In this document: one piece after another, positions 9,574-29,363 of the stretch
How positions within the stretch are numbered: the first letter of the stretch is position 1
Layout: every line of letters begins with the position of its first letter
NCBI GenBank assembly: GCA_030425505.1
Contig: JAUIAB010000011.1
Location: 1 to 64,000, forward strand
DNA from: Bacteroidia bacterium
GTDB lineage: Bacteria > Bacteroidota > Bacteroidia > Cytophagales > Flammeovirgaceae
DNA: 64,000 bases
Direction: 5' to 3'
Made by a program: the position numbers and the translations under genes
The notes under the pieces: model-generated
Database searches by the model: none
The model's input: the letters and a program-made list of their open reading frames with translations, nothing else
What the model was told of the DNA's origin: nothing

Positions 9574-9698
9574 GTCTCGTGTATGAGTAGTAGCGGATTT
9601 TCACTCACAAACCTTTCGGTTTTATACTGCCCTTTGTTTTATGTTTTTACTTTAGTTTTATCACCTAAACCGCTATTACTTATACACATTGTTGTGCT
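9563..9698. repeat. attC-like site 8
   Basis: Boxes TACACACAAC (9563-9572) and GTTGTGCT (9691-9698). Arms GTGTATGAGTAGTAGCGG (9579-9596) and 9670-9687, all 18 positions paired with G.T at 7 and 12; spacers 6 and 3 nt; loop 73 nt. Confidence 0.9.
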
Positions 9699-9706
9699 CT
9701 CGTGTT

Positions 9707-10051
9707 TTAAAAAGGTAAATCATCATCTTGTTCACCTGTTTCTTCAATTATTTCTTCTTCCGTTACATTTTCATTACTTTCATTATTAATTGAAAGATTA
9801 AACTTTTCATAGATTTCATTAATTGTATCTTTTATTAATCCAAGCTTTTCAACATTTTCTTGGTCATCAAAATTTTCAAATTCAATTTCAAGTTTATCAT
9901 TCTCGGGCATGACTTCTAATAAATAATCAACTAACATCTTGAAATTTACATCGGTAGCGACCGGAATACTAATTTCTTTTTTTGTTTCTGATTCTTTAGA
10001 AAAAGTAATCTCTAAAATACTGTCTTTAAACTTGTTTTTTACTTTTATCAT
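9707..10051 (-). CDS. Small acidic partner protein with SSB-like C-terminal tail
   Basis: A 114-residue protein. The first 80 residues form an alpha/beta domain; the last 25 are strongly acidic and end in DDDLPF. This is the form of the conserved C-terminal tip of single-stranded DNA-binding proteins (E. coli SSB ends DDDIPF), through which SSB recruits repair and replication enzymes. No OB fold is evident, so it is not itself an SSB. It is coupled to the PHP-AAA ATPase gene by an ATGA overlap. It may link that ATPase to SSB-binding partners or compete with host SSB (inference). Confidence 0.75.
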   Translation of the reverse strand: MIKVKNKFKDSILEITFSKESETKKEISIPVATDVNFKMLVDYLLEVMPENDKLEIEFENFDDQENVEKLGLIKDTINEIYEKFNLSINNESNENVTEEEIIEETGEQDDDLPF

Positions 10052-12426: not shown

Positions 12427-12461
12427 TAGATTTTAATTCAATGCGGTTGTTTTTTACATGA

Positions 12462-12594
12462 AGCACAACGTTGAGTATAAGAATAGTAGCCGATTGCGTG
12501 GCACTTTCCTGTCAAGCCGCAAGAAAGTTGAAGCGGGCTACAACCCTTGATTTTACTACTATTCCGGCTATTATTTTTATACATTGTTAGGCTT
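12462..12594. repeat. attC-like site 9
   Basis: Boxes AGCACAAC (12462-12469) and GTTAGGCTT (12586-12594). Arms GTATAAGAATAGTAGCCG (12475-12492) and 12565-12582 with G.T at 7 and 12; spacers 5 and 3 nt; loop 72 nt. GTTAGGC is the one box that fits the classical GTTRRRY core exactly. Confidence 0.88.
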
Positions 12595-12601
12595 TCGTGC
12601 T

Positions 12602-13681: not shown

Positions 13682-13693
13682 ATTCTTTTTATA

Positions 13694-13728
13694 TGTACCA
13701 AAATTACAAATTATGGTACAATTGTCAA
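13694..13728 (-). promoter_or_regulatory. fic promoter with overlapping TGTACCA palindrome
   Basis: On the minus strand TTG (13726-13728), 19 bp and TAATTTTG (13699-13706) fit the Bacteroidota promoter. The inverted repeat TGTACCA/TGGTACA (13694-13700 and 13714-13720) overlaps the -7 box and is a plausible operator. Confidence 0.6.
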
Positions 13729-13753
13729 TATTTGCAGGGTTCTTTTCGCATGA

Positions 13754-13888
13754 AGCCTAACGGTCTCGTGTATGAGCAGTAGCGGATTTATAGCTACTAC
13801 TTTTAATTAAGCAAGATACTTAATTAAACGCAAAAACGGTTCAAGTTTGCACTTAAACCGCTATTGCTTATACACAATGTTGGCGGTA
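13754..13888. repeat. attC-like site 10
   Basis: Boxes AAGCCTAAC (13754-13762) and GTTGGCGGTA (13879-13888). Arms GTGTATGAGCAGTAGCGG (13769-13786) and 13858-13875 pair at all 18 positions with G.T at 7 and 12; spacers 6 and 3 nt; loop 71 nt with an inner ACTTTTAATTAAGC-type inverted repeat. Confidence 0.9.
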
Positions 13889-13896
13889 GTATTTTT

Positions 13897-14475
13897 TCAT
13901 CTTTCGTTGTGTCCTTTTCCGTCAAAGATTTTCGGTTTCGCCTTTTCAATTCTTGAACTTCTCGTTTTGGATTGTTTGGCTTCTGAAAAATAGAGCAAAT
14001 ATCCTCTTTGTCGTCCTGGTGTCAGATTGTAAAATGCAGTTTTAAATTCCGAGTCGTTCTCAAATTCTTGTTCAAGTTCTTCGGGCATTTCATATTGAGA
14101 AGTCTTTTTCATTTTAACTTCCAAACCTGCTTTTTCTACCTCTATTGCCTCAAAAATATAGGTTTTGATAATTGCTTTAGTGTCAATAATTTGCTCTTTG
14201 TTTGTAAATCGCATTTGTCGAGCCGATTGTACGTTTTCGGTCTGTTGCACCAATATATTTTCCTTGTCATTTAGCAATGCTCCCTTGTGAAAAAGTAAAG
14301 CACAATATTCTTTAAATCCGTGGATAAGAACTATATTCTTGCCTTGAAAAGTATAGCAAGGGTGCATCCACTTAAAATCTTCGTCAAGTCCACATTCCAA
14401 GCAAATTTCTCGTAGTAAAATGCTTTCTTCTTTCCAATTCTTGATTTTTTCTATGTATCTGTCAACCTTTTCCAT
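13897..14475 (-). CDS. YdeI/OmpD-associated family protein
   Basis: A 192-residue soluble protein. The N-terminal DUF1801-like part has MEKVDRYIEKIKNWKEE and GKNIVLIHGFKEYCALLF, and the C-terminal part the YdeI-type segment with YNLTPGRQRGYLLYFSEAKQ and a very basic end. The biochemical role of the family is not settled. It is the last of four genes in cassette 13879-15779 (ArsR, SRPBCC, DoxX-like, this one), spaced by 2-7 bases, so one transcript is likely. Confidence 0.85.
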   Translation of the reverse strand: MEKVDRYIEKIKNWKEESILLREICLECGLDEDFKWMHPCYTFQGKNIVLIHGFKEYCALLFHKGALLNDKENILVQQTENVQSARQMRFTNKEQIIDTKAIIKTYIFEAIEVEKAGLEVKMKKTSQYEMPEELEQEFENDSEFKTAFYNLTPGRQRGYLLYFSEAKQSKTRSSRIEKAKPKIFDGKGHNER

Positions 14476-14477
14476 AT

Positions 14478-14867
14478 TTAGCTTTGTTTTTGTAATTCAA
14501 TTATTTTTCGGTCGTTCGGTCTGAAATACCAAGACGCAATTGTTACTAAAAGCAAAATAATTGAAGGCATTGCTTCTGTTGTGGGTTGTCCACCTGCTAA
14601 ATGTGAAATGGTTGCTCCGGACATTGCAAAGAAAAATCCTGCATAAGCCCATTCTTTTAGCAAGGGCTTTTTAGGAATTAAAATGGCGATTACGCCCAAA
14701 ATTTTCCAAGTCCCAAGAATTGACAACAAGTAGAGTGGATAGCCTAGTTGGGTAACTATTTCGTTGTATCCACCAGTTTGAAGCATTTGCTGTATTCCGC
14801 CTGCCAACATTCCGAATGATAGGAAGATTGTTGAAACCCAATAGGTTATTTTTTCTGTCTTTGTCAT
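14478..14867 (-). CDS. DoxX-like membrane protein
   Basis: A 129-residue protein with four predicted membrane helices, starting at about 8, 43, 72 and 100, and the DoxX-like features GGIQQMLQTGG and LGTWKILGVIAILIP. DoxX family members are small inner-membrane proteins tied to redox or respiratory functions, with no single agreed role. Third gene of the ArsR-led operon, 7 bases after the SRPBCC gene and 2 before the YdeI-type gene. Confidence 0.85.
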   Translation of the reverse strand: MTKTEKITYWVSTIFLSFGMLAGGIQQMLQTGGYNEIVTQLGYPLYLLSILGTWKILGVIAILIPKKPLLKEWAYAGFFFAMSGATISHLAGGQPTTEAMPSIILLLVTIASWYFRPNDRKIIELQKQS

Positions 14868-14874
14868 TTTACGG

Positions 14875-15339
14875 TTATTTTGATTTTGTCAATATTTCTT
14901 CCAATCGGTTATGTGCCCAATTGATACCTTGCTTGAATGGAAGTTTTAGATTTTGGTCTCTGTGGTTTACGGATTGATAGATTACATTCTGCATTAATCT
15001 GCTTGTGTTTTTGGTCAATTTCTCGAACTCGTAAATTTCAAGTTGAACGCCAAAAGGCATATTTTCCATTTCAAAAGTCCTTATGATTTTTTGGTTTGTT
15101 GTGAAGTCGTGTATTGTACCATTAAAGACTATTTTGTTGCCTTTTGGGTCGGAAGTTGAGAACTGGAAATTACCGTGTTTCTGAAAGTTAAATTTTAGCA
15201 CTTTTGTTCCCATCCATTGTTCAATTATTTCTGGCTCTGTGTAAGCTTTGAACAAAAGTTCTACTGGCAAGTCAAAAGTTCTTGTAATCAGAATTTCCTG
15301 TTTGCCGTCTTCGGCTATGACGTTTGTTTTTTGTTCCAT
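14875..15339 (-). CDS. SRPBCC (AHSA1-like) protein
   Basis: A 154-residue START-like protein. ILITRTFDLPVELLFKAYTE near the start and IIEQWMGTK are typical of the Aha1-C-like SRPBCC group that often stands beside ArsR regulators; EQGINWAHNRLEEIL-like C-terminal helix is present. It would bind a hydrophobic ligand in its cavity. Second gene of the cassette operon. A paralogous arrangement (ArsR followed by SRPBCC) occurs in the next cassette, which suggests both came from related sources. Confidence 0.85.
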   Translation of the reverse strand: MEQKTNVIAEDGKQEILITRTFDLPVELLFKAYTEPEIIEQWMGTKVLKFNFQKHGNFQFSTSDPKGNKIVFNGTIHDFTTNQKIIRTFEMENMPFGVQLEIYEFEKLTKNTSRLMQNVIYQSVNHRDQNLKLPFKQGINWAHNRLEEILTKSK

Positions 15340-15342
15340 ATT

Positions 15343-15666
15343 TTACTTTTTTGATTGATAGTTCTTCATTACCGATTCTAATTTGTTAAATCGGTCGTCC
15401 CATAGTTTTCTGAAAGGTTCAATAAATTCGGCTATTTCTTTCATTCCGTTTGGGTTTAGTTGATAGTAGATTTCTCGCCCTTTTTGCTCCTGTTTCAATA
15501 TTTCACATTCGATTAGGATTTGTATGTGTTTGGAAATGGTTTGTCTTGAATAGTCAAAATTTTCGGCTATGGCTGTCGGTGTCATTGCTTGTAGAGCAAC
15601 CAAAGAAATGATTGTTCTGCGAGTTGGGTCGGCAATGGCTTGGAAAACATCTCGTCTTAATTTCAT
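15343..15666 (-). CDS. ArsR-family winged-helix repressor
   Basis: A 107-residue DNA-binding repressor that begins [17 protein letters not shown]; the recognition helix is in [17 protein letters not shown]. No metal-binding ELCVC motif, so it belongs to the ArsR group linked to SRPBCC/AHSA1 genes rather than to arsenic sensors. The frame is open 11 codons further up, but that stretch overlaps the operator, and the start at 15666 matches its paralogue at 17223. It heads the cassette operon and likely represses it. Confidence 0.88.
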
Positions 15667-15680
15667 TACGCAGTTATTTG

Positions 15681-15715
15681 ACTGCAAATATATACGCAAT
15701 CATTTAACTGCACAA
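15681..15715 (-). promoter_or_regulatory. ArsR promoter and operator, cassette 13879-15779
   Basis: TTG (15713-15715), 20 bp, TATATTTG (15685-15692) on the minus strand. The overlapping sequence (15681-15713) is a repeat of TGCA half-sites that is also found, with few changes, before the second arsR gene (17246-17279), so it is probably the repressor's operator. Confidence 0.65.
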
Positions 15716-15769
15716 ATTTTTCACTTTAAAATTTTGGAAATTAGCGGTCGGTTTTCGGTTCTGTTATAT

Positions 15770-15907
15770 TACCGCCAACGGTCTTGTGTATGAGCAGTAG
15801 CGGACTTATACCCACCTGCTTTTCAGATTACAATATACCTTATTTAAATGAATTAGCGGTTCGGGCTAGCACCCAAACCGCTATTGCTTATACACGTTGT
15901 TGGCGGT
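15770..15907. repeat. attC-like site 11
   Basis: Boxes TACCGCCAAC (15770-15779) and GTTGGCGGT (15899-15907). Arms 15786-15803 and 15878-15895 pair at all 18 positions with G.T at 7 and 12; spacers 6 and 3 nt; loop 74 nt. The arms equal those of site 10. Confidence 0.9.
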
Positions 15908-15925
15908 TCGTTGTTTTTTCTTTGC

Positions 15926-16900
15926 TTACTTCTCTTGATAATTAATCATCCAATTGATTCCATATTTGTCTGTAAAACTTCCGTAATACGCACCCCAAAA
16001 CATATCTTGAATTGGCATTTCTACTTTGCCATCAATTGAAAGTTCATCAAACAGCCGTTGTGCTTCTTCTTTTGAATCGGGTTCGAGTTGGATATGCATA
16101 TTATTGCCTTGTGTCAGAGTGAATCCCATTTCTTTAGGTGCGTCAGTCCCCATTAAAATGTGTCCGCCAAGTAATGGTAGTTCAATATGTAAGACCATCT
16201 TTTTTACTGGTTCTGCAATAGGTGGGTGGTTGGGATCGGCAGGAAGGTCTCCAAAACGTTTGATGCCGTTGATAAAATCTGTTTTAAAAACTGATTTGTA
16301 GAAATTGAATGCTTCTTCAGTGTTCCCCTGAAAATTTACATAACTTGATACTCTTGCCATATTGTTTGATTTATTTTGTTTGCGAAGTTTAAATTGTGTT
16401 TCTATGTATTGGTCTAGATTTTCCATAGCCATTGTAAAGCCTTCTTTAAAACCCATTTCAATGATTTTTTCTAAGTCAGCAAGGCTCTCGTATTTGGCAG
16501 TAATGGTTACAAGGGTTTTTTCTCCATTTTCATTGAACTCATTTGTCCACTCAGTTCGGGGCATTTCTTGATTTACTAATCCGTTTTCGTCACAAAAAGC
16601 ATCTAAACCTGAAAACATAGACTGATGCTTAATTTTGATGTAATCATTTTTACACCAATGACATTCTTCTTGGCTTTGACTTTCGGTATTATACATTTCG
16701 TAGAGCCACATTCCACCTTCTCTAAAGTCCATTGACTTGGTTCTGGTCTGATAGGGTTTGGGTGCCCACCACTGGTCAAGAATTTCGGGATTTGTCCACG
16801 CTTCCCACACCAATTTGAGGTTTGCAGAAAACTCTCTTTTCACGTTTACGGTGTTATTTTCCTTGTTGACTATGAAGTCAAATTTTAAGTTTGGGTTCAT
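15926..16900 (-). CDS. SRPBCC-VOC (PhnB-like) fusion protein
   Basis: A 324-residue fusion. Residues 1-165 are an AHSA1-type SRPBCC domain ([32 protein letters not shown]). Residues 180-324 form a complete PhnB-like VOC domain starting at [18 protein letters not shown] and ending [11 protein letters not shown]. The internal Met, preceded by NKSNN, looks like the former start of a separate gene, so the fusion may come from loss of a stop. The ATG overlaps the stop of the upstream arsR gene (ATGA). VOC domains of this group are seldom assigned a reaction. Confidence 0.85.
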
Positions 16901-17223
16901 TTTCTTTTTGATTTTAATTGTTCTAAAACGGTGTCCAATTGGTCAAAACGTTTGGCTAGTAATTTCTTAAACTGTTCGAGCCATTTTTCTATGTCTTTCA
17001 TTTTGTCTGCATTTAAGTGATAATGAATTTCTCTGCCTTGTTGCTCTTGTTTTACAATTTCACACTCCGTAAGTATTCGCAAATGTTTTGAAACAGCTTG
17101 TCTGCTTGAATCAAAATGTTCGGCTATGGCATTTGGTGTCAAAGCACCAACAGCTAAAAGCATAATAATGGCTCGTCTTGTTGGGTCTGCTATTGCTTGA
17201 AAAACGTCTCGTCTTGTTTCCAT
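16897..17223 (-). CDS. ArsR-family winged-helix repressor
   Basis: A 108-residue paralogue of the protein at 15343-15666: [20 protein letters not shown] at the start and [20 protein letters not shown] as the DNA-binding helix. It ends in a basic tail. It is translationally coupled to the SRPBCC-VOC gene and controls it, most likely through the operator at 17246-17279. First gene of cassette 15899-17356. Confidence 0.88.
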
Positions 17224-17245
17224 TTCTTATTATTTGCAATTAAGT

Positions 17246-17281
17246 AGTTGCAAACATATATGCAATTATTTAGTTGCACAA
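17246..17281 (-). promoter_or_regulatory. ArsR promoter and operator, cassette 15899-17356
   Basis: TTG (17279-17281), 20 bp, TATGTTTG (17251-17258) on the minus strand; spacing is the same as before the other arsR gene and the overlapping half-site pattern (GTTGCA... TGCAAT... GTTGCA) is shared. Confidence 0.65.
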
Positions 17282-17347
17282 TATTTCTCTAAGAAATTTT
17301 ATTGTTTTTTAATGAATTTGTGCGGTGTAGAAGTGTCTTTTTCAATG

Positions 17348-17483
17348 ACCGCCAACGTTCCTGGCTATGGCTAGTGCGGCTTTTGGAAACGTTTCCGTCC
17401 TCGCCAGCAGGATGGTTATTGAAAGTACAAAATATCATTTTTTACTTTCAAGCCAGCATTAGCTATAGCCGTTGTTGTGTGTA
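17348..17483. repeat. attC-like site 12
   Basis: Boxes ACCGCCAAC (17348-17356) and GTTGTGTGTA (17474-17483). Arms 17363-17380 and 17453-17470; identical to site 7 from 17353 on, loop 72 nt. Confidence 0.88.
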
Positions 17484-18116
17484 GGCTTTTTATTTTTTCA
17501 ATGATCCAAAAGAATATTCGTTCATTATTATAATATACTCTTCAATGGTTGATAGTCCAGCCTGTTTTCTTCGTTCATTTAAATGATCCGGATCGATTAC
17601 GGGCTTTGGAACATAGGATGAACTATCTGCATTTAATGTCATTTGAGTTCCATACACTTGAAGTTGACCTGTATTTACATTTACTCGATCAATCAAATAC
17701 ACATAGTCAAAATTGTTCATGTTGCCACTTTCAGCGACAAGCTTCATCTTTTCCAACACTTGAATCTGAAAGTTTGGATGTTTATCTTGATGTTGTACCA
17801 ATAGCCAATAGTTATGTGTTCCTTCATCACCGATTTCTTTGGTTCCTAGGTAGCCTTGCTCATTGAAAATGTCCTTTAATAAAAAGTAATTCAAGCTGTC
17901 CGTTCGTTGAAGGTTTCTACTAATGAACTTTTGATCAAGAGAGTCAATTTCATGATTGTGCAATTGTCTTAAAAGTCCACGCCATTTTTGGTCTTCCTTA
18001 ACCATTGAATCCAATGTCATCTCAATTTTAGCGAATGATTGACAGTATACTTTGGATGTCAGTATGATCAGAATGAATATCGTGATTTTGGTTTTCATTT
18101 TAGCTTACACACAACG
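17353..18116. repeat. 764-bp exact cassette duplicate, copy B
   Basis: Identical to 8810-9573. Flanks differ immediately outside CAACG at both ends: ACCGC before and ACCC after in this copy, TTGCATA before and GTCTC after in copy A. Confidence 0.95.
17490..18098 (-). CDS. DUF6624-type secreted protein, copy B
   Basis: Identical in nucleotide sequence to the gene at 8947-9555: a 202-residue exported protein with signal peptide and the WLLVQHQD and YGTQ motifs. Function unknown. It lies in cassette 17474-18115, four cassettes closer to the recombinase than copy A. As new cassettes enter integrons next to attI, this position would make copy B the later arrival, but both now lie inside the array (inference). 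Confidence 0.8.
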   Translation of the reverse strand: MKTKITIFILIILTSKVYCQSFAKIEMTLDSMVKEDQKWRGLLRQLHNHEIDSLDQKFISRNLQRTDSLNYFLLKDIFNEQGYLGTKEIGDEGTHNYWLLVQHQDKHPNFQIQVLEKMKLVAESGNMNNFDYVYLIDRVNVNTGQLQVYGTQMTLNADSSSYVPKPVIDPDHLNERRKQAGLSTIEEYIIIMNEYSFGSLKK

Positions 18117-18306
18117 ACCCGGCTAAGAAACGTAGGGGAGTTTGAAACACTGCCCTTTCGGTTTACCACTTAGCCAAGCCAAATATTTTTATAATTTACT
18201 TTTCTTTTTTCATTATCAAAATTTTGATTTGGCGGTCTATAATCGAAGCTTAAAACTTCCAATTTACCACCAAAACCCCTATGTTTTTTAGCCATTGTTG
18301 TATGCC
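18106..18306. repeat. attC-like site 13 (long-loop type)
   Basis: Boxes TACACACAAC (18106-18115) and GTTGTATGCC (18297-18306). Arms GGCTAAGAAACGTAGGGG (18121-18138) and 18276-18293, 18 of 18 paired with G.T at 7 and 12; spacers 5 and 3 nt; loop exactly 137 nt. The arm sequence differs from the other sites, yet the wobble positions are kept. Confidence 0.88.
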
Positions 18307-18338
18307 TGTGCTTTCTTTTTCGGAGCGGAGGCAAAAGA

Positions 18339-18400
18339 CATACTTATTGCCAAGTTTGGGCTCGGGCTGTTGGCTTTTGAGCGACTTGGCAATGTGTATG
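18339..18400. repeat. Second-family hairpin, copy a (downstream of nuclease-helicase)
   Basis: Arms CATACTTATTGCCAAGT (18339-18355) and 18384-18400, 17 bp with mismatches near the sixth and seventh positions; inside lies GGGCTGTTGGCTTTTGAGCG. Same plan as the copies at 23389, 24368 and 28360. Confidence 0.65.
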
Positions 18401-18420
18401 GCTTTGTAGCGTTGCTACTT

Positions 18421-21400
18421 TTATTCATTTTCAATTTCTTTTAATTCATCAATAGGAAAGCTAATTGTTGAAAGCTTAGTAATATTTACTTTCGAAGTTC
18501 CCTTTTTACGGATGTTATAAATCCAGTAATATAAACCGTCAAACTCTTTGTCAGATTGTTTCACATTAAAGTGTCCGTATTTTTCATAGAACTCTTTAAG
18601 TAGATTGAGTTTAGTGTCCCACTCATGTTCCTTCATGTCCCAAATCACACCTAATTCCTCTAAAAAAGCTTCTCTTTCCTCACTCAAATAAGTAATTTCT
18701 CCCTTCGTATTTTTTCTCCCTTTTTTATAAACTCGTTGATCATTTAGCCAACGACCTAATTTTTTGTACTTCGGGTCAATTTGGGAAACATTTGTATGTC
18801 CGAATTCTTCTTTGTACTTTTTTAATTCAATCAACTTATCAAACCAATCATCATCTCGTGGTGATGCCCCTTTACTGTTAGGCTCCCAAATGAATTTTAT
18901 TGAATTTAGTTTAGCAATTTTATCAGAGGCTAGTTTGTTTTTACGTTTAGCAACCCTTTGACCTAGAATCCAGTGATAAATACTCGGATTACCATCACTT
19001 TTCTGGTAATTGCTATGACCATTTTTTTTGAAAAAAGTCTCTAACTCTTCAAATTTATTATTCCAAGCATTTGATTTTGGTGCAGTAAATTCGAATTGCA
19101 GTAATTTTAACTTTTCAATTTTTTCAGTTTCTAATTCACCTTTTTTGTATAGGAATCTGTTTCTCGTTACGAAGTTTGCAAGAGTTTTATTTTCAAAGCT
19201 TCTAGGAACATTACAGTGTCCTTCAGAGATCTTAAAATTCAAAAGAAGTAAGTAGGTTTGTTCCCAACTATCAAATGATGTGCTTTTTGTGTTGGTCTTG
19301 GTTGGACGAGAACTAGGGTTTACTTCGAATTCAAACTTTTTACCTTGATAGTTAACATCAAATGAGTAACCAATTTTGTTTAATTTCTCTAACTTCTCAT
19401 CAGTTAATCGGTTATTCTTATATAGTCTCTTTTGCTCAACCAGCCATTTTTTAAGGTCTTGATATTGAGGTAGGCTTTTAGGAATGAGAAAGGTATTATA
19501 TTTGGAAAAATAGAAACTTAACTCTTCTAATTTTTCTTCCCAATCAATTAAGTTGTTTTGTGGTTTTCGACCTCTAAAATCTAAATCGAAGGAATATCCT
19601 ATTTCAGTTAGTTTGGATACTTTGTCTTCATTTAGTTTGCCATTTCTAAATAGTTGTCTTTGATATTGTAACCAAGCTTTAAGTGACTTATATTCCTCCG
19701 AATCGGTAGGAATGAGCCATGTTTTAAATTCGTCATAATAGCTTTTTAATACGTTGAGATTATCTAGCCAGACTTCATCAACAGATTGTTTTTCTTCGGA
19801 AGACCGACCTATTGAGCTAAGTGTTTTACCTCTGTAACTTTCTTCAAATGGAAAACCAATACCCAATAGTTTGGCTTCTCTATCTGAGGATAAATTATCT
19901 TCTCGCCATAGTTTCTTTTGATATTGAAGCCATGGAATTAGGTGTGAGTATTCTTCATTTGATTTAGGAATTAGAAATGTGCCGTTCTTCTCAGAGTATT
20001 CCTTTAAATCGGCAAGTTTCTGTAACCATTGTTCTTCATTTCTTGGTTTGGAGTTATTTCCTTTACCTCTGTAAGTATGGGTAAAAGAGTAACCTAGTTC
20101 AAGTAGCCTTTTTCTTTTTTCTTCATCTAATTTGCCCTCTTTTTCTAACTTTTTTTGGTAACGTAGCCATGATAGCAGAGGACGGTTATCTATATCGGTA
20201 GAGGAAATAAAGAATGAACCTGTGTTATTATAAAGTTCTTTTACTGCTTCAAATTTCTTCTCCCATTCTTGTTCTGTGAATGATAGAAAATCAGTGTCGA
20301 AGTCTAATCCAATTGATTTAAGTTTTTTTAATTTTTCTGCGTCTAGAGTTTCATTATTGAATAATCGTCTTTGATAAACAAGCCAATCGTAAAGACCTTC
20401 AAAAACTTCGTTTTCTGGAGTTATATCAAAATTTTCATTTTCGTCTTTAAAGAGCTTTAATTGAGTTAATCGCTCCATCCAATTTTGAGTACTTCCTGAA
20501 CGACTGTATTTTGAGTCAAATGAAAAATCAAAATCTAAAGCTTCAAGGAGTTTAGTCTGTTCATCTGTTAAATCTTCTTGATTCTTTCTGTTTTTGTAAA
20601 CCCAATAATACAATTGTGGTTCTTCTGATTGTATAGGTCGTGAATGACCATGATTATCGTAAAACTCTTTTAAATCATTATAATAATCTTCCCATCTAGT
20701 TTTACGAACAGAGTTTTTGAAACCAAGTGATTTAAGTCTCTCTAATTGTTTTTTACTGAGTGAAGAGCCGCTGTATTTAATTGAACCATTTGGTTGTAGC
20801 TCTCCATTATTTATTATTGACCGATATTTATTAGTCCATTTTCCAAGTTTTGGGAAATCCGCTGAAATTGTAGGAACGTTTGTATGACCATATTTCTGTT
20901 TGAATTCAATTAGCTTTTGGCAGAACTGGTCAAAAATTTTCACTTTGGCGTCCCAGCTAAAATCTAATTCGTCTAGGAGGTCAATACGGTCTTTGTTCAA
21001 TTCGTTTTTTCTTCTTTTCGCTCTTTGAGCAACCACCCATGTTCCTAAGGGTTTGTCCTTTTTATATCTTGCAGGTATATCAGAGTTTCCATGCTCCTTG
21101 TAGTATGCTACCAGTTTAATGTAACTATCCCACCAAATGTCATCATAATCAGTATCCTCTCTAAATTCTTCACTTTTCCAGTCAAATCCAATTGAATCAA
21201 GTTTATTCCGTTTTAGCAGATTTAATTTTTTTGCTCTGTTTTGTCTTCGTTGCTCGTATATCCAGTTACATAATTGAGGATTTTCTTTTCGAGATACTTC
21301 TAAGTGTTGAAATTCTTTTTGATAATCAACAAGCTGCATGAACATTACTTGCCAAAAATCTTTTGTTTTTTCAATTATTTCATCAAATAGAACGTTTTGT

Positions 21401-23364
21401 AGTTTTTTTTCTAACCCTTCTAATTTGATAATCTTTTCAATTTCATTGTCTTTGAAATCTATGAGTAGTCTTGAATTAGACCGCTTTCCTTTTCTAGACG
21501 CTATATCGTTAATCTCAGCTTCCAATCTTTCATCTTGGTCACACATGGCTCTCACCACTTGAATTAGATAATTGAAAATTGGTTTCCTTTTGATTTCATC
21601 TTCTAGATTCTCTTCAATATGATGAAATATTGGAATAACAATATAACCTCTTTTCTTGCTTCCTTTTGGGTCTTTCCTTAATGCTCTGCCTGAGGCTTGC
21701 ACTATATCAATTTTAGAAGTCTTAGGGTCACAGAAATAAATTAAATCGATTGTCGGAACGTCAACGCCTTCAGTTAAACACCGAGCATTTGAAACAATCC
21801 CTTTAGCACTATTCTTAAATTCGTCTAGAACCTTTTTTCTATAGGTTGTAGATTGCTTTCCGTTTACACTTTCTGAATATATGCTCTCGAAGAATCTAGA
21901 ATGCCGACTAGCGAATTCTTGTGCTAATATTACTTTCGAATGAAAAGTTAATCCATGAAATGCTTTGTATTTGTTCATTACCAGTTCGAGCGCAAAATTA
22001 TGAGCTAAATCTTCTGCCGTTATTTGCCCTATAAATTCACGTTCTTCAATATACTTTTTAACTTCCTTGTCTGTAACCCCAATTCCGATAATTTTATAGT
22101 CAACTAATATTTTATTGTGAATGGCTTCCCCAAAACTCATTCTGTAAGCTTCTTCTCCAAAAACAGTAGGATTACTCATATCACATAGTAATTCGTACTC
22201 GTCTCCAAGTTTAGTTTTTAAACTTGTTGAAGCAACTTTCGGAGTTGCAGTCATATAAAGCCTTTTTGAAGCTCGTAGTTTGTCATTGTCGTGTACAATT
22301 GTAAACGTGTTTTTCTTTGTGCTTCCCGCAGTCCTGTGAGCTTCATCACATATAATCAAACCGAATTCAAAATTTGGAATTTGTAAACTTGCTATTGATA
22401 CAACTTCAATAGATTGATATGTAGAGAAGATTATTTTATCACCCTCTTTTTCCAGAAATGCCCTAACCTTTTTATAATCTGTTGTAACTGGACCTTGAAT
22501 CTCATAGGAATGCGTAACTGCACTATCATCACCCTTATTAATGTCCTTTTCAGAGCAAACATATAAGGGGCGAAAAGAAGTGTTTTTTTGTCTAGCCCAA
22601 TCAGTTTTTATTTGTCTTAGTAAGGCTAAAGAGGGAACTAAAACAAGTGTTGTTTTAGGTTTTAACCCTTCTTTTATCCATAAAGCAGTTAGAGTTTTGC
22701 CAGCACCACAAGGCAGGATTAATTGTCCTCTACTTTCATTTTTAAAGTGTGTTACAACTTTTTCGATTGCAATTTTTTGATGGTCACGAGGTTTAAATTT
22801 CTCAATACTTGGAAGTTGATTTCCTTTTGCTATTGATAGAATGCGGTTAAAAGCATTTTCATCTAATTCTAAAAGAGTGTCATTAAGGATTTGTTCATAT
22901 TTATCTCCAAATGCTTTTGCGACCTTCGTAACATCAGCAACATTTGAAAAGACTATAATTTTTTGGCAATTTGTGCCCAATGCAAATACATTGGCGATTT
23001 TGTCTCCCGACCAACTTAGACTTTTGAGTTCATCATTTTTAAATTTGCATTGGACAGCATGATATCCTGAGTCAATATCTTTAAGAAGAATGTCAATTCC
23101 ATGATCAATAGAGGGTAAGTTTAATTTCTTTCTAATGTTTAGAGGTATTTCTTCATAAAGCCAAACATCTGTGTATAAATCAATTTTTTCTGGGTCGGTT
23201 TGGAAATAGTATTTACAGAAGTATTCAAATATTTTTCCTGCTAAAGTCTTTTTGGATGTTGTTTCAGTTTGGGTGGTGTTAAATTGTTCTAACTTGTTTT
23301 TTATGTCAGACCACTTAGATACACCATCTAGCAATTCAATTAATATTTGATTTTCTTTAGTCAT
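18421..23364 (-). CDS. Nuclease-helicase with about 13 helicase-associated repeats
   Basis: A 1647-residue fusion. Residues 40-140 are an Mrr-like PD-(D/E)xK nuclease domain (HGIDILL with D91, AVQCKFK with Q105/K107). An SF2 helicase core follows: Walker A PCGAGKT (218-224), DEAHR (340-344), MTATPK, and motif VI QASGRALRKD. From about 680 to the end come some 13 copies of a 65-75 residue helicase-associated domain (W..K...L..Y....G...V.......L..W...QR), several alike (FLIPKS..EY...L..WL). This is the make-up of large helicases in restriction or defence loci; HA repeats bind nucleic acid. Sole gene of cassette 18297-23483, bracketed by second-family hairpins. A stand-alone defence enzyme is a likely role (inference). 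Confidence 0.88.
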   Translation of the reverse strand: MTKENQILIELLDGVSKWSDIKNKLEQFNTTQTETTSKKTLAGKIFEYFCKYYFQTDPEKIDLYTDVWLYEEIPLNIRKKLNLPSIDHGIDILLKDIDSGYHAVQCKFKNDELKSLSWSGDKIANVFALGTNCQKIIVFSNVADVTKVAKAFGDKYEQILNDTLLELDENAFNRILSIAKGNQLPSIEKFKPRDHQKIAIEKVVTHFKNESRGQLILPCGAGKTLTALWIKEGLKPKTTLVLVPSLALLRQIKTDWARQKNTSFRPLYVCSEKDINKGDDSAVTHSYEIQGPVTTDYKKVRAFLEKEGDKIIFSTYQSIEVVSIASLQIPNFEFGLIICDEAHRTAGSTKKNTFTIVHDNDKLRASKRLYMTATPKVASTSLKTKLGDEYELLCDMSNPTVFGEEAYRMSFGEAIHNKILVDYKIIGIGVTDKEVKKYIEEREFIGQITAEDLAHNFALELVMNKYKAFHGLTFHSKVILAQEFASRHSRFFESIYSESVNGKQSTTYRKKVLDEFKNSAKGIVSNARCLTEGVDVPTIDLIYFCDPKTSKIDIVQASGRALRKDPKGSKKRGYIVIPIFHHIEENLEDEIKRKPIFNYLIQVVRAMCDQDERLEAEINDIASRKGKRSNSRLLIDFKDNEIEKIIKLEGLEKKLQNVLFDEIIEKTKDFWQVMFMQLVDYQKEFQHLEVSRKENPQLCNWIYEQRRQNRAKKLNLLKRNKLDSIGFDWKSEEFREDTDYDDIWWDSYIKLVAYYKEHGNSDIPARYKKDKPLGTWVVAQRAKRRKNELNKDRIDLLDELDFSWDAKVKIFDQFCQKLIEFKQKYGHTNVPTISADFPKLGKWTNKYRSIINNGELQPNGSIKYSGSSLSKKQLERLKSLGFKNSVRKTRWEDYYNDLKEFYDNHGHSRPIQSEEPQLYYWVYKNRKNQEDLTDEQTKLLEALDFDFSFDSKYSRSGSTQNWMERLTQLKLFKDENENFDITPENEVFEGLYDWLVYQRRLFNNETLDAEKLKKLKSIGLDFDTDFLSFTEQEWEKKFEAVKELYNNTGSFFISSTDIDNRPLLSWLRYQKKLEKEGKLDEEKRKRLLELGYSFTHTYRGKGNNSKPRNEEQWLQKLADLKEYSEKNGTFLIPKSNEEYSHLIPWLQYQKKLWREDNLSSDREAKLLGIGFPFEESYRGKTLSSIGRSSEEKQSVDEVWLDNLNVLKSYYDEFKTWLIPTDSEEYKSLKAWLQYQRQLFRNGKLNEDKVSKLTEIGYSFDLDFRGRKPQNNLIDWEEKLEELSFYFSKYNTFLIPKSLPQYQDLKKWLVEQKRLYKNNRLTDEKLEKLNKIGYSFDVNYQGKKFEFEVNPSSRPTKTNTKSTSFDSWEQTYLLLLNFKISEGHCNVPRSFENKTLANFVTRNRFLYKKGELETEKIEKLKLLQFEFTAPKSNAWNNKFEELETFFKKNGHSNYQKSDGNPSIYHWILGQRVAKRKNKLASDKIAKLNSIKFIWEPNSKGASPRDDDWFDKLIELKKYKEEFGHTNVSQIDPKYKKLGRWLNDQRVYKKGRKNTKGEITYLSEEREAFLEELGVIWDMKEHEWDTKLNLLKEFYEKYGHFNVKQSDKEFDGLYYWIYNIRKKGTSKVNITKLSTISFPIDELKEIENE

Positions 23365-23388
23365 TCATTAAGTCAAGCGTTGGCTAAA

Positions 23389-23450
23389 AAATAGCTCTTT
23401 TGGTTTTTTAGCGTTTGCCTGTGTGTTGGCAAAAACCAAATGTGCTATTT
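23389..23450. repeat. Second-family hairpin, copy b (upstream of nuclease-helicase)
   Basis: Arms AAATAGCTCTTTTGGTTTTT (23389-23408) and 23431-23450, 18 of 20 paired; the two mismatches fall in TCT against TGT, as in copy c. GCGTTGGC motifs flank the hairpin (23378-23384 region and 23453-23460). Confidence 0.65.
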
Positions 23451-23473
23451 GTGCGTTGGCTCTTTTTTTGCAT

Positions 23474-23674
23474 GGCATACAACGGTTAGTATATGGCATG
23501 TAGGGCAGTAGAAAGCGATAAACTTTCAGTTTTGCACTGAGCCAAATCGTTGTATTTTGTTTTTAATTTATTCATTCTTAAAAGCCAAATCAACGATTTG
23601 GCGGGATTTGTTAATAGCACTGAACTTTCGTAAACCACCAAACGCCCTATTTGCTATATACCATGTTGGCAGTA
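23474..23674. repeat. attC-like site 14 (long-loop type)
   Basis: Boxes GGCATACAAC (23474-23483) and GTTGGCAGTA (23665-23674). Arms GTATATGGCATGTAGGGC (23489-23506) and 23644-23661 with G.T at 7 and 12 and a T.T at 11; spacers 5 and 3 nt; loop 137 nt, closely alike to site 4. Confidence 0.88.
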
Positions 23675-24187
23675 GGTTTTTAATTTTTTATCCATCACAA
23701 CAATATTTCTACTTTCAATTTGAAGTCTTTCAATCCTTACCCACCCAAGTCTTTCATAAAGTCTTTCATAAAGTCTTTCCGCTGTGTCCGTATATAAATG
23801 AAGTTGTTCAAGTCCTAAATTCTCTGAATGTTTTTGAATGAAATCACAGATTAATGCTCCATATCCTTTTTTTCTTTGTTCTGGGATTGTATAAACTAGT
23901 GCTAACCAATTCTTATGAATTTTAAATCTAGGTTCTTTATCAAGTAATCCTACGTGATTATAAATTCCGCCTGTGGTAATTGGTAATCCGTTAAGTGTCA
24001 TTAAAGCTTGAAATTGGTACTTATCATTCGTAATTTTTTTGAGCTTCTCAATTGTTTTAGTTGCCGGTATATCCCATTCATTCAAATACCAATTAGCAAT
24101 CAATTCAAAATGTTCTACATCATTCGGTTTAAGTATGTCAAATTTTATTTCCGACATTTCTGATTCCAATTTTTTTTTTGTTTTCAA
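23654..24187 (-). CDS. GNAT-family acetyltransferase
   Basis: A 177-residue N-acetyltransferase. The acetyl-CoA loop is EQRKKGYGALICDF near 103-116 (R/Q-x-x-G-x-G/A type), preceded by the beta strand WLALVYTIPE and followed by LEQLHLYTDT. Near the C-terminus, ERLYERLYERLGW contains an in-frame tandem repeat. The coding frame runs through the cassette's core box and ends at 23654 inside site 14, so the last residues (about YCQHGI) are encoded by recombination-site DNA. The start may also be at codon 11. Sole gene of cassette 23665-24199; substrate unknown, small-molecule resistance is a common role. Confidence 0.85.
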   Translation of the reverse strand: MKTKKKLESEMSEIKFDILKPNDVEHFELIANWYLNEWDIPATKTIEKLKKITNDKYQFQALMTLNGLPITTGGIYNHVGLLDKEPRFKIHKNWLALVYTIPEQRKKGYGALICDFIQKHSENLGLEQLHLYTDTAERLYERLYERLGWVRIERLQIESRNIVVMDKKLKTYCQHGI

Positions 24188-24189
24188 CT

Positions 24190-24325
24190 TACTGCCAACG
24201 GTTTTGTATATGAAAAGTAGCGGATTTTATACACTAACTTTTCGGATTATTACAGACCTTTAATTTATTCATTTTGTTTCGTTTAAGCGACTAAACCGCT
24301 ATTTTTTATATACGTTGTTGTACAC
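24190..24325. repeat. attC-like site 15
   Basis: Boxes TACTGCCAAC (24190-24199) and GTTGTACAC (24317-24325). Arms GTATATGAAAAGTAGCGG (24206-24223) and 24296-24313, all 18 positions paired with G.T at 7 and 12; spacers 6 and 3 nt; loop 72 nt. This is the site nearest the recombinase. Confidence 0.9.
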
Positions 24326-24367
24326 TGGCTTTTTTCCATTCAGATTGTCATTCAGCGTTGGCAAAGA

Positions 24368-24426
24368 CATACTCTTTTGCAATTTTGGGCTTGAGCATTG
24401 GCTGAAGCGAATTGCAAATGTGTATG
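24368..24426. repeat. Second-family hairpin, copy c (downstream of R-M genes)
   Basis: Arms CATACTCTTTTGCAATT (24368-24384) and 24410-24426, 15 of 17 paired with mismatches in TCT against TGT. Flanked by AGCGTTGGC on both sides (about 24354-24362 and 24432-24440). Confidence 0.65.
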
Positions 24427-24439
24427 GCTTTAGCGTTGG

Positions 24440-25909
24440 CTATAATTCAATCTTTATAGGTTTTTCATTTATTATCTTGTCAATTATTTCTTTTAACTTG
24501 TTTTTTAATTCAATTATTTCTGTGTTCAATTGAAATATTCCAATTTCTCTATTTCGATTTTTTTCTTTTACTAAATAGTCTTTCAGTTCATATTCAGTTT
24601 TAGGTTTTTCGAAATAGTATAAGCTCTTTATTTTTTGTTTTAACTCTTTCTTAAAATTTGGATATTTTAATGTTGCAAAATCATATGATTTCATTTCTTT
24701 CATTTTAGAACCTATGGAAATATTACCACATAACTTTCTCATAATTTTCGAATTCATAAATGCAGAAATAAAAAGTAGTTCATCTTTTTTTAAATGGTCA
24801 ATTCTATATAGACCTTGATTATGTTGTCCAAGTCCATAATATCCAAAATCATAAAAGCAAGTTATTCCAACGTATTCGCCTTTTTTCCCTTTTGAAGTTC
24901 TATTAATAAAAAGAATACAATCCTTATTTAAGTTATTTACTTTTGGTGTTGAAATGGTATCTACTGGAACAAAAAAACCTTCATCTGTAATGTTGGTAGG
25001 TGTAACCCATTGATATTTAAATTTTGTACCATTAAAAATTCTAATTCTTGGTGTAGAACCGCTTTTAAATTTATCGGCTGGTATTTGGAAATATCCTTGT
25101 TTATAATTCTCAATTAGGTGGTTTTCTTTTTTGTACTTTTTTGTATATAAACCAGTATCAATTCGTTTGTGATTTAGTAAATCACTTTTTTTAGGAAGAT
25201 TATATTTAAATGTAGATTTTTGATTTTCTAATAACTCTGAATAAATTAAATCATCAATTAAACTTTGCCGTTTTTCAATCTGTTCTTCTTTATCAATAAT
25301 ATTTTGAGTTAGTATTGATACATATTCTCTAACTAAATCTGGATTTTCGTAATTCTTATTAGTTGGTAATGGAATCTTTGTATCCAATAAGTTCTGTCTT
25401 TTTGCATTTTTTTGAGTACCACCACCAGAAGTTAAAACCTTTAAATAATCAGCTCCATATTCCAACAAAAAGAAAGCAAAAGCGTAATATTTATAACTAT
25501 CATTAAATCTTAAGTAAGAAATACCACCATTTAAAATACCTTTAAAACTTTTGTTGACTAAAGTTATTTTACCAAGAGATGCATTTCTACTTATTAGAAC
25601 ATCTCCTTCCTTTAATTTTTTTGATGAAGAATTATAAATATTAGGCGAAATTTTTTCACCTTTTGAAACATCTATTATACACTTATTCATATTTGATATA
25701 GTTACCAAAGTATAATTTGATTCAAAATTTAAATAATCGTCAACATCAATTTGCTCTCCAACACCTTCGTCAATTAAAAATGATTTAATTGCGGACTGTT
25801 CTTTATTTTTAATATTTATTTGCTTGTGTTCAGCAGGATGAAATGAATAAACTTTACTAATAATTTCCGACTTTTTGATGCTTTTAGGTTTGCTTAAAAA
25901 ACTACTCAT
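24440..25909 (-). CDS. Restriction-modification specificity (S) subunit
   Basis: A 489-residue HsdS-like protein with two target-recognition domains. The first (about 20-200) has the typical DVLISRNASLGKI and NGGISYLRF; the second (about 270-430) has KFKSGSTPRI and QHNQGLYRI with FISAFMNSKIM. Coiled-coil helices follow each (EEQIEKRQSLIDDLIYSE; the C-terminal NTEIIELKNKLKEII). It would give DNA sequence specificity to the fused nuclease-methyltransferase encoded 2 bases upstream. Last gene of cassette 24317-28440. Confidence 0.9.
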   Translation of the reverse strand: MSSFLSKPKSIKKSEIISKVYSFHPAEHKQINIKNKEQSAIKSFLIDEGVGEQIDVDDYLNFESNYTLVTISNMNKCIIDVSKGEKISPNIYNSSSKKLKEGDVLISRNASLGKITLVNKSFKGILNGGISYLRFNDSYKYYAFAFFLLEYGADYLKVLTSGGGTQKNAKRQNLLDTKIPLPTNKNYENPDLVREYVSILTQNIIDKEEQIEKRQSLIDDLIYSELLENQKSTFKYNLPKKSDLLNHKRIDTGLYTKKYKKENHLIENYKQGYFQIPADKFKSGSTPRIRIFNGTKFKYQWVTPTNITDEGFFVPVDTISTPKVNNLNKDCILFINRTSKGKKGEYVGITCFYDFGYYGLGQHNQGLYRIDHLKKDELLFISAFMNSKIMRKLCGNISIGSKMKEMKSYDFATLKYPNFKKELKQKIKSLYYFEKPKTEYELKDYLVKEKNRNREIGIFQLNTEIIELKNKLKEIIDKIINEKPIKIEL

Positions 25910-25911
25910 TA

Positions 25912-28065
25912 CTAACTGATTTTAAAGTTAAAAGCATTTTTAATTTCTAATTCTTGACGTTTAAGAAATTCTTTAAATTCATCCTGCATTGTAGAAAAGT
26001 CTTCTTCCAATTTACTTGTATGCTCAAATGTTTCTTCATTAATCAGAAATTGAGGCTTAAATGTAATTGTTCTTTTTACAGTTTTTACTTCATAGCCTAT
26101 GTTCTCAACTTCCTTAATGAAAACTTCGTAATCAGCATCTAATAAATGTTTTTCACTTGATTTTGGTTTGTATGCAATTATTACTGTAGTAGCAACACCA
26201 GTTTCTCCAAAAGTATTTGCTGGTAAGTCAAATAGACCAACAATTCTAACACGTTCAATTAGCCATTTTCGAATATTTTCCCATTCAGCAATTGAAGCAA
26301 TAGAATTTGATAGAACTATCCCAAAACGACCACCTTCTTCAAGTAATTTATAAGCATTTTCTAAAAATATCACACCTTTATCTATTGATTTAGGTAATGT
26401 TATTTTTCCTTGAGCATTTGGTTTTGGTTTAGCTTTATAAGTTTCATAAAGATTTACAGTTTCTTTTGCTTCTTCCCATTTACCGTCTTTTCCTGTTTTT
26501 AAGTCTCTTCCTTTACCAAATGGTGGATTTGTAGCTATTATTTTAAACTTCTTTAAATCTTTATCTGAATCGTCTTTATGTGACCAATCTTTTGAGTTGT
26601 AATTCTTTTCAACAAATTCACCAACTTTTAAAATTTCACCATTTTGGGTTAGCTTTTGAGAAATTGAATTTAGGTTCTTTAAAACAGCACCACCATCTCC
26701 ATTTAAGACTAAATTTAATTCAGCAAGTTTCAAGTTGTTATTTTCAATATCGAAACCAAAGTAATGACTTGCGTTTGGTGGATATTCCTCATCATTTCTA
26801 TGCGCGTGTCTAAATGCCATTGCTGGAAAATCACAAATTCCGCAACAAGGGTCGCACAGTTCTTCGCCTTTGATTGGATTCAGCATTTGAATAATTGCTT
26901 TTACAACTGGAATAGGTGTAAAGAATTGACCTTTGTCTGCTTTTTGTTTATCATCACCAAAATTGTTAAATATTATTTGGTTGAAACTTTCATTTTTAGC
27001 TTTTAAGATTGCTCTTTTTTGTAATGCCTCAACCAAAAGAATTAAGAATCTTTCTTCATTTGCATTTGATGGTCTAAATGATGAATCATAGCTAAAATAA
27101 GGTGTTGACATTACATTCTTGTACTCCTTTTTCGCATCCTTATACAATTCGTCAATTCTTTCTCTGAAAGATTTCTCTGCTAAACCGTCTTTCTTTTTCT
27201 CTTTCTTCTCGATGTAGAATTTTAGATTTGACTTTTCTCTTTTACTTCTTTTCTCATCAAATACTTTTAAAGTCAAAAACTCTACAATTAAATCTCTTTC
27301 TGAATGTTTTGGTTTAACACTGTCAGCAACTCTTTTTAGTTCAGCAAGAAAATCTTCGAACGCAGATTCATCAATTGCATCAAGTGCATCTGTCGTAAGT
27401 TTTGTTACATCAGATATACTTTCGTTGTTAATTCTAAAATCTTCATAAGATGGAAAATCAATTAAAAAATCTCTTTTATCAAAATTTAGATTGATGATTC
27501 CTGAACCTGATAATTCGATAGATTCATCAAATCTTCGTATTGGCGAATTACCAATTTTTTTAAAAACTAAAATATCTGGTTTATCATCAAAATAAACTCC
27601 AAAAACTCTTTCTTCAGATTCGTTCTCTGCAAGTGCTGGTCTTAATTGGTTTTCAATTGCACTTTCTAAAGATTTGTTATTCTTTTTAGTTTCAAAAACA
27701 ACAAGATAATTTTGTCTTAACTTTTTAAAATCCTTTTTTGCTTTAGCGTCTTCATATATATCTAACCATTCTTTAGTTTTAAAAGCAACTACATCAGGTT
27801 TTAATGCTTTTCCATTATTACCTTTAGGTATATTAAATTCGATACATAAAAATTCTTTTGGAAAAAGACCACTGTTTACAAGAGCGTAAACAAAACGTGA
27901 GCGAATATATTCTTCACTAAAATTTCCTTTCGTATCTTTTGTTTTTGCTTTACTTGCAAAGGATTTTACTCCTATTTCTTCTTCGTGAAATTTTTTATCA
28001 ATTGTGACAACATCTTTGTATTTCTTATCAAAGTCAGCAAAGTATTCTTTTAGATTTTTACTCAT
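25912..28065 (-). CDS. Fused restriction nuclease / N6-adenine methyltransferase
   Basis: A 717-residue protein joining a PD-(D/E)xK-type domain to a type I-like methyltransferase. N-terminal nuclease motifs are LKPDVV (D91) and VVFETKKNN (E125, K127). The helical M-subunit part follows, then motif X KGQFFTP (378-384), the SAM site DPCCGICDF (405-413) and catalytic NPPF (513-516). With a separate S subunit and no HsdR, this looks like a BcgI-like (type IIB/IIG) system that both cuts and methylates. It lies between a small XRE regulator (2 bases upstream) and the S gene. Confidence 0.85.
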   Translation of the reverse strand: MSKNLKEYFADFDKKYKDVVTIDKKFHEEEIGVKSFASKAKTKDTKGNFSEEYIRSRFVYALVNSGLFPKEFLCIEFNIPKGNNGKALKPDVVAFKTKEWLDIYEDAKAKKDFKKLRQNYLVVFETKKNNKSLESAIENQLRPALAENESEERVFGVYFDDKPDILVFKKIGNSPIRRFDESIELSGSGIINLNFDKRDFLIDFPSYEDFRINNESISDVTKLTTDALDAIDESAFEDFLAELKRVADSVKPKHSERDLIVEFLTLKVFDEKRSKREKSNLKFYIEKKEKKKDGLAEKSFRERIDELYKDAKKEYKNVMSTPYFSYDSSFRPSNANEERFLILLVEALQKRAILKAKNESFNQIIFNNFGDDKQKADKGQFFTPIPVVKAIIQMLNPIKGEELCDPCCGICDFPAMAFRHAHRNDEEYPPNASHYFGFDIENNNLKLAELNLVLNGDGGAVLKNLNSISQKLTQNGEILKVGEFVEKNYNSKDWSHKDDSDKDLKKFKIIATNPPFGKGRDLKTGKDGKWEEAKETVNLYETYKAKPKPNAQGKITLPKSIDKGVIFLENAYKLLEEGGRFGIVLSNSIASIAEWENIRKWLIERVRIVGLFDLPANTFGETGVATTVIIAYKPKSSEKHLLDADYEVFIKEVENIGYEVKTVKRTITFKPQFLINEETFEHTSKLEEDFSTMQDEFKEFLKRQELEIKNAFNFKIS

Positions 28066-28406: not shown

Positions 28407-28431
28407 ACTGCGCGTTGGCTTTTCAGAGCTT

Positions 28432-28482
28432 GTGTACAACTTATTGTTAATCCAAATATACCCAAAAACTTATTTTTAACAA
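28432..28482. other. Probable attI-like insertion site
   Basis: GTGTACAAC (28432-28440) is the closing box of the first cassette, complementary to GTTGTACAC at 24317-24325. To its right there is no palindrome and no cassette, only about 95 bases before the recombinase gene, the place of attI in integrons. GTTAATC occurs twice (28446-28452, 28494-28500) and may be recombinase-binding repeats (inference). Confidence 0.6.
28453..28482 (-). promoter_or_regulatory. Leftward cassette promoter (Pc-like)
   Basis: On the minus strand TTG (28480-28482), exactly 19 bp, then TATATTTG (28453-28460) is a full match to the Bacteroidota TTG-N19-TAnnTTTG pattern. Transcription would begin about 28445, some 5 bases before the insertion point, and run into the array. 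Confidence 0.7.
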
Positions 28483-28535: not shown

Positions 28536-29363
28536 ATGGACATTATAGCAGAATTTGTTAAAATACTAGAGTTAAAACGTTATAGTAAACAAACCATTAA
28601 CAGTTATAAGGGTCATTTGCTAATGGTTAAAACCCACTTTAATGACAGAACCTTTAAGCAAATAACTGATAAAGAGTTGTTTGAATATATTTATCACTTG
28701 GTAAATACAAAAGGAATTTCTGCTTCGTATCAAAGACAAATTGTAGGCAGTTTAAAACTGTTTTATAAGGAAATTCATAACCGTTCAATTCCTTTTGAAT
28801 ACTTAAAAGTTACTCAACGAGAAAATAAACTACCAGTTGTTTTAAGTAAAAAAGAAGCTGTTTTAATAATCGAAAACACTAATAACTTAAAGCACAAAGC
28901 CATTCTTTCAGTAATATATAGTGCTGGTTTAAGAATAGGAGAATTAATAGAATTAAAGAAAACAGATATTGACTCTGAAAGAATGTTAATACATGTTAGG
29001 GGAGCAAAAGGAAAAAAAGATAGATATACTGTTTTATCAAAAAAAGTATTAGAACTGTTAAGAGAATATTACAAAGAATATAAACCTATCGTTTATTTAT
29101 TTGAAGGGCAAAAAGGAGGTAAATATTCTGCCGAAAGCACAAGCCAATTTTTTAAAAGGGCATTAAAAAAATCCACAATAAACAAATCAGCCACACTACA
29201 TACATTAAGGCATAGTTTTGCAACACACTTACTAGAAGAAGGGATAAGTATTGCCCACATCCAAAAACTTTTAGGGCATAGTAATATTTCGACTACCTTG
29301 ATTTATACCCATATAGCAAAAGATACTCTAATAAATATAAAAAGCCCACTGGATACCTTCTAA
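28536..29363 (+). CDS. Tyrosine recombinase, candidate cassette integrase
   Basis: A 275-residue Xer/IntI-like recombinase. The SAM-like core-binding domain covers about 1-88; the catalytic domain has R133 (GLRIGEL), K158 (RGAKGKKDR), H222 and R225 (LHTLRHSFATHLL), H248 (LLGHSN) and the nucleophile Y257 (IYTH). The C-terminus NIKSPLDTF resembles the R/VSPLD end of IntI proteins. The extra patch of about 20 residues that marks IntI, just before the HxxR region, is absent; YKPIVYLFEG runs straight on. It stands at the array end and reads away from it, as intI does in most integrons. It is the best candidate for moving these cassettes; this is not proven. Confidence 0.85.
   Translation: MDIIAEFVKILELKRYSKQTINSYKGHLLMVKTHFNDRTFKQITDKELFEYIYHLVNTKGISASYQRQIVGSLKLFYKEIHNRSIPFEYLKVTQRENKLPVVLSKKEAVLIIENTNNLKHKAILSVIYSAGLRIGELIELKKTDIDSERMLIHVRGAKGKKDRYTVLSKKVLELLREYYKEYKPIVYLFEGQKGGKYSAESTSQFFKRALKKSTINKSATLHTLRHSFATHLLEEGISIAHIQKLLGHSNISTTLIYTHIAKDTLINIKSPLDTF

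Follow-up and report, generated by a model that had tools for sequence, protein, structure and literature searches.

The integron, known from class 1 and chromosomal examples (IntI/attI/attC), is among the described systems closest to the locus reported here. The two share an integrase gene lying divergently beside attI, cassettes in a common orientation, recombination sites with the plan R''-L''-L'-R', a crossover at G^TT and cassette ends that match each other. They differ in that the recombinase of our locus (P0001) has no I2 patch and lies outside the IntI clade, and in that its hairpins carry A·C (G·T) mismatches, not extrahelical bases. The I2 patch has been held necessary for cassette capture, as the innovation that opened single-stranded DNA to integrases (PMC7790495), and strand choice has been held to depend mainly on extrahelical bases (PMC2727003). 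In the available part of a study on the "Integron-like" subgroup of tyrosine recombinases, the insertion is called essential for integron function, and arrays or sites of I2-less members are not described there (PMC8138268). XerC/XerD acting at dif, and the pdif modules, offer a tyrosine recombinase of similar length; P0001 belongs to another clade, and in place of 28-bp duplex sites it has long, covarying hairpins. The NCBI family NF040815 (XerA), named "site-specific tyrosine recombinase/integron integrase", lends its name to plasmid relatives of P0001, while P0001 itself falls under the family cut-off and the name covers neither an array nor sites. An earlier integron survey picked genes by the intI patch (PMC2426708), and IntegronFinder 2.0 listed one complete integron in Bacteroidota (Salinibacter), besides those of Chlorobi and Ignavibacteriae (PMC9024848).

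The P0001 gene occupies 28536..29363 (+) of the window, the 64,000-nucleotide stretch of a Bacteroidia genome that was analysed. Its frame is intact, with 275 amino acids and no internal stops, on the strand and at the coordinates given in the earlier note; the reverse strand of the same region has many stops. Pfam profiles identified P0001 as a two-domain tyrosine recombinase (Phage_integrase, 2.8e-39, and an N-terminal SAM-like domain). The catalytic set that the earlier note had called complete (R133, K158, H222, R225, H248, and Y257) indeed occupies all six aligned RKHRHY columns, and the C-terminal KSPLDTF aligns with SPL of IntI4, as had been proposed from the likeness of SPLD to IntI. 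The spacing from K158 to H222 is 64 residues in the alignment. The corresponding spacing ranges from 62 to 75 in 100 relatives (64 or 65 in 79 of them), is 66–73 in XerC/XerD/XerA, and is 106 in 11 of 11 canonical IntI sequences, including IntI1. The I2 patch is thus absent from P0001, and the AlphaFold2 model (mean pLDDT 89) shows H169-182 and H199-213 without a further helix between them. Both results uphold the earlier description of an enzyme without the IntI-specific patch and with an Xer-like length between the lysine hairpin and HxxR; if anything, the segment is slightly shorter than in Xer. In fold comparison, the model was close to XerA and also to IntI4 (2a3v, TM 0.81). P0001 scored 182.4 bits against the canonical IntI profile TIGR02249 (cut-off 265), and its best NCBIfam match, NF040815, reached 206.7 bits (cut-off 220). 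Taken with the domain profiles, the predicted structure and the alignment, the gene was annotated as an I2-less integron-type tyrosine recombinase.

In a recombinase tree of 124 rows, IntI forms a single clade (100%) with P0001 outside it, and the host XerC and XerD are separated from P0001 by a branch with 96% support; the support of the deep branches is only moderate. The neighbors of P0001 are recombinases of five loci (L173, L045, L080, L027, and L053) within a Bacteroidota group. The host's own XerD and XerC genes were located on other contigs (C19 and C35, respectively). The tree and these genes give no orthology of P0001 to either protein, and the grouping with host XerC/XerD that the earlier note had named as refuting its reading is contradicted by the 96% branch. 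Tyrosine recombinases gave 13 matches in the genome, and no canonical IntI was found in it. Two contigs each carry a pair of tyrosine recombinase genes (C33, 237818 and 246703; C38, 2154 and 10670) with spacings of about 8.9 and 8.5 kb and identical scores; the pairs look like a duplicated mobile element.

To the left of the P0001 gene lies a cassette array (375..28065, −) of 28 kb with at least 13 attC-like sites, which runs past the contig start. Its larger ORFs all lie on one strand, divergent from the recombinase, and are parted by imperfect palindromes of about 120–190 bp. On the gene strand, each site reads ...AAC-3 nt-L''-AGCGG...loop...CCGCT-L'-about 6 nt-GTT..., and every cassette ends in an imperfect palindrome of the plan R''-spacer-L''-loop-L'-spacer-R'. 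A covariance model (R1) built from 12 sites gave 13 matches in the window (E<1e-16), all on the − strand and all left of the gene, or 14 sites including one short site. No sites were found in shuffled sequence; the hairpin-site array presupposed by the earlier note is real. In a MAFFT alignment, 12 of the 16 stem pairs had changed on both sides and 95% of cells were paired, and the covariation score was 0.602, against 0.158 for shuffled alignments and at most 0.081 with the register slid. A direct-repeat search alone did not reveal the sites, because their common structure exceeds their common sequence, and a search of the sites against Rfam returned no match.

The R1 matches, all on the − strand, are designated from the recombinase outward as R (24189..24325), Q (23473..23673), P (18105..18305), O (17346..17482), N (15769..15907), L (13751..13887), K (12459..12594), J (9562..9699), I (8803..8939), G (7100..7235), F (6128..6328), D (4753..4890), and A (1441..1580). 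The left R box of D is degenerate, the upper stem of A is divergent, and the bottom strand of N folds as a single continuous stem. The short site B (2671..2734, −) is a nearly perfect palindrome of 64 bp with an R' match of 10 bp. It stands in a site's place without the A·C pattern described below, and its R boxes match the flanking cassettes. The first cassette (24440-28262, −), which ends at site R, encodes an HTH regulator, an N6 methylase and a specificity-type subunit resembling MADS parts. From its predicted products, it looks like a defense-like module in the position nearest attI. Site Q ends a GNAT acetyltransferase cassette, site K a SoFic-type Fic cassette, and site P a single cassette of nearly 5 kb whose 1647-residue restriction/helicase-like protein (18421-23364, −) has 13 helicase-associated domains. 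The adjacent cassettes at 14875-15699 and 15926-17223 (−) each contain an AHSA1 protein and an ArsR-type regulator. The genome has further R1 matches on four contigs besides this one (C21, 285765-296315; C39, 7064; C22, 48774; C17, 81923; loci L123–L126). On C21, six sites stand in a row and no recombinase gene was found on that contig, an array without an integrase.

The stems carry a regular mismatch pattern. Whatever the stem sequence, an A faces a C at positions 7 and 12 of the stem, counted on the gene strand (as in site R), with sites A and B as exceptions; in G, the A·C positions come one register step earlier. Read on the other strand, these two positions, which lie 5 bp apart, are G·T wobbles. 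When 36 array regions were searched with an unbiased detector that penalized A·C, C·A, G·T, and T·G equally, 93 sites were found (4 in shuffled sequence), with counts of 162 AC, 25 TG, 4 GT, and 2 CA. Random decay of a palindrome should give equal counts, whereas AC was observed 162 times and CA twice. Whole-site folding energy favors the bottom strand in 9 of the 14 window sites; it separates the strands poorly because the loops dominate. Subtypes of the pattern exist. In the Flavobacterium/Arundinibacter subtype, A·C lies near positions 10 and 13 and T·G at 4, and a short-hairpin subtype occurs in Rufibacter and one further genome (G052). Two loci (L132 and L052) hold arrays of far shorter hairpins (about 56–80 bp) in which the A·C positions are still present.

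One gap-allowing aligner was applied to the sites of canonical IntI arrays and of I2-less arrays. The 40 sites from canonical arrays of the same phylum contained 90 single-base bulges (89 in L'') and 3 A·C mismatches, while the I2-less arrays (76 sites) had 126 A·C mismatches and 29 bulges. Therefore, extrahelical bases go with I2 and A·C mismatches with its absence. In our sites, A·C mismatches take the place of the extrahelical bases in L'' that characterize canonical attC. That the A·C sites are the canonical attC of the phylum was considered and rejected, as canonical arrays have bulges with almost no A·C; also against it, the sites track the I2-less gene in genomes that bear IntI.

The array shows signs of cassette-wise mobility. 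Sites I and O belong to copies of one DUF6624 cassette of 764 bp (copy 1, 17353..18116, −; copy 2, 8810..9573, −), which are 100% identical and bordered by CAACG/CGTTG. For each of 14 cassettes, the bases directly following G^TT were compared with the R'' at the cassette's own end. Own ends shared a mean of 8.6 contiguous complementary bases. The hairpin now present at the junction gave 4.4 and other pairs 4.2, and a match this good did not arise in 20,000 permutations. Because the first bases of a cassette complement its own last R box, the cassettes appear to move as circles cut at G^TT; self-matching ends are the pattern expected for circles that are cut there and then re-inserted. Single-orientation cassettes, R''/R' sites and cassette-wise mobility, the features of an integron-type array, were all found.

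End matching alone places the putative attI of the window at 28428..28443 (−), with the crossover TAAG^TTGTACACAAGC joined to cassette 1, whose start matches its own R'' over 9 contiguous bp. This sequence has one exact occurrence in the genome and lies beside the start of the recombinase gene. Upstream of it, TATATTTG (28453..28460, −) is a candidate Bacteroidota-type −7 box and, judged by its letters, a possible cassette promoter (Pc) reading into the array. Comparison of two plasmids, from Flagellimonas marinaquae (L173) and Arenibacter algicola (L174), revealed an attI beside the integrase. Both encode the same recombinase (53% identity to P0001) within a stretch of identical DNA. Their identity upstream of the gene ends at ...CCGGATATCCAGTAG^TT (...CAGTAG^TT), and different cassettes follow. 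The cassette ends in these plasmids also match (TTGTAGTGC.../GCACTACAAC, TTATGCGG.../CCGCATAAC, and TTGGCATTC.../AATGCCAAC).

The distribution of sites and recombinases was surveyed in 247 Bacteroidia genomes with thresholds of E<=1e-4 for R1 sites and E<=1e-60 for the recombinase. Sites were present in 156 genomes, the recombinase in 133, and both in 108; the co-occurrence has an odds ratio of 5.9 (p=1.6e-10), counted without regard to phylogeny. This speaks against the other outcome that the earlier note had named as refuting, a lack of association with such arrays in other genomes. Sites but no detected recombinase were recorded in 48 genomes, and the recombinase but no sites in 25; draft assemblies and thresholds may account for some of these cases, not surely for all. 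Canonical IntI exceeded its cut-off in 84 of 296 genomes of the whole phylum, only one of which is in the same class. I2-less recombinases with such sites are thus common in Bacteroidia, and canonical IntI is nearly absent there. Fifty genomes from outside the class all had canonical IntI; of these, 16 of the 20 that also carry the I2-less gene (E<1e-80) had sites, as did 8 of the 30 lacking it. Near the genes themselves, R1 matched in 29 of 78 loci of P0001 relatives, and in individual loci the array starts beside the gene. Of the loci of host XerC/XerD and of 32 remoter relatives, most of them from other phyla, one gave a match, a Bacteroidota contig; none lay near host XerC/XerD. The divergent layout of the window recurs in four loci (L027, L045, L087, and L173); in most others, the array lies downstream on the gene's own strand.

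Resistance genes are among the cassettes. A·C-type sites flank each of five resistance genes, blaOXA-347, erm(F), tet(X2), estT, and ere(D), in Sphingobacterium faecium pWB8 (L216) and Riemerella anatipestifer (L218); for every one of the five cassettes, self-matching ends of 9–10 bp were found in one or both of these sequences. The ends of the estT-floR stretch of pWB8 do not match, and it may be a fused or deleted cassette. Both ends of the erm(F) unit of the F. marinaquae plasmid are identical in plasmids of Myroides, Sphingobacterium, Riemerella, and Parabacteroides, and one end is common to Bacteroides and Salmonella. In the plasmids examined (L216, L218, L213, L173, L219, and L220), erm(F) and ere(D) are oriented against the array direction. 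A "xerD" gene beside tet(X) had been noted earlier, when no integron was found and the question was asked whether "xerD" mobilizes tet(X) (PMC7473080). In Acinetobacter, the "xerD"/TnpF beside tet(X3) belongs to the P0001 recombinase family and is 5'-truncated, and tet(X3) there begins with the same cassette start, GTTATGTGCC.

We consider it most likely that the locus is an integron-type platform for gene capture, in which an I2-less integrase recombines folded single strands and the mismatches determine the choice of strand. In this mechanism, P0001 would synapse a hairpin extruded from one strand of a cassette site, probably the bottom strand with its stem closed by G·T wobbles, with the double-stranded attI beside its own gene, and a single strand exchange would insert the cassette. 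The strand, and hence the orientation of the cassette, would be selected by the A·C/G·T asymmetry, which would stand in for extrahelical bases and an I2 pocket. The conserved mismatches are thereby a candidate for the other way of handling folded sites that an enzyme without I2 must have. The single-strand substrate is suggested by covariation and strand asymmetry, which also fit a double-stranded or cruciform substrate. The same cassettes might accordingly be recombined as duplex or cruciform DNA by two exchanges, like Xer at dif/pdif, with the A/G difference between the arms serving as a half-site asymmetry. An enzyme of Xer-like length would suit such a reaction, as would the lack of I2, the part credited with single-strand recombination (PMC7790495). 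However, the stem sequence differs from site to site within one array while the 16 pairs remain paired, leaving no fixed duplex sequence to recognize; hardly any mismatches other than A·C occur on the gene strand, the cassettes keep one orientation, and their ends match each other rather than the neighbor. We regard recombination of duplex sites as unlikely.

An explanation that makes P0001 a mere neighbor of an array moved by host XerC/XerD or by a lost canonical IntI could draw on the further tyrosine recombinases of the genome (13 matches) and on the 48 sampled genomes with sites and no detected P0001 relative. It is very improbable given that the genome has no canonical IntI and its XerC/XerD genes no nearby sites, that sites adjoin the clade of P0001 in many genera, and that in the L173/L174 plasmids the array abuts a P0001-family gene and differs exactly at attI. 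Least credible of all, and close to negligible, is the view that the hairpins are ordinary intergenic repeats or terminators without recombination. Their placement after genes and their palindromes with G+C-rich stretches would be in keeping with it, but not the exact duplication of a cassette with borders at the site, the self-matching ends, the identical ends of the erm(F) unit in many plasmids, the strand-specific mismatches or the absence of an Rfam match.

With P0001 taken as the integrase of the array, the system explains why Bacteroidota have seemed almost empty of integrons. No description of such I2-less arrays was found in the open-access literature, a scope that leaves preprints and most subscription journals outside, and we judge the system to be novel relative to that literature only. 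On balance, though with less assurance than for the platform itself, we favor the view that it represents a second, independent solution to structure-guided recombination: an I2-less lineage that reads the strand from A·C/G·T mismatches, is widespread in Bacteroidota, was missed by I2-based surveys, and is an unrecognized vehicle for erm(F), tet(X), estT, ere(D), and blaOXA-347. The existence of a common cassette system lacking both I2 and extrahelical bases makes the claim about I2 directly testable and provides a natural pair for comparison with canonical integrons. It would also offer a route of mobilization for resistance genes of Bacteroidota, including those with the unexplained "xerD" beside tet(X).
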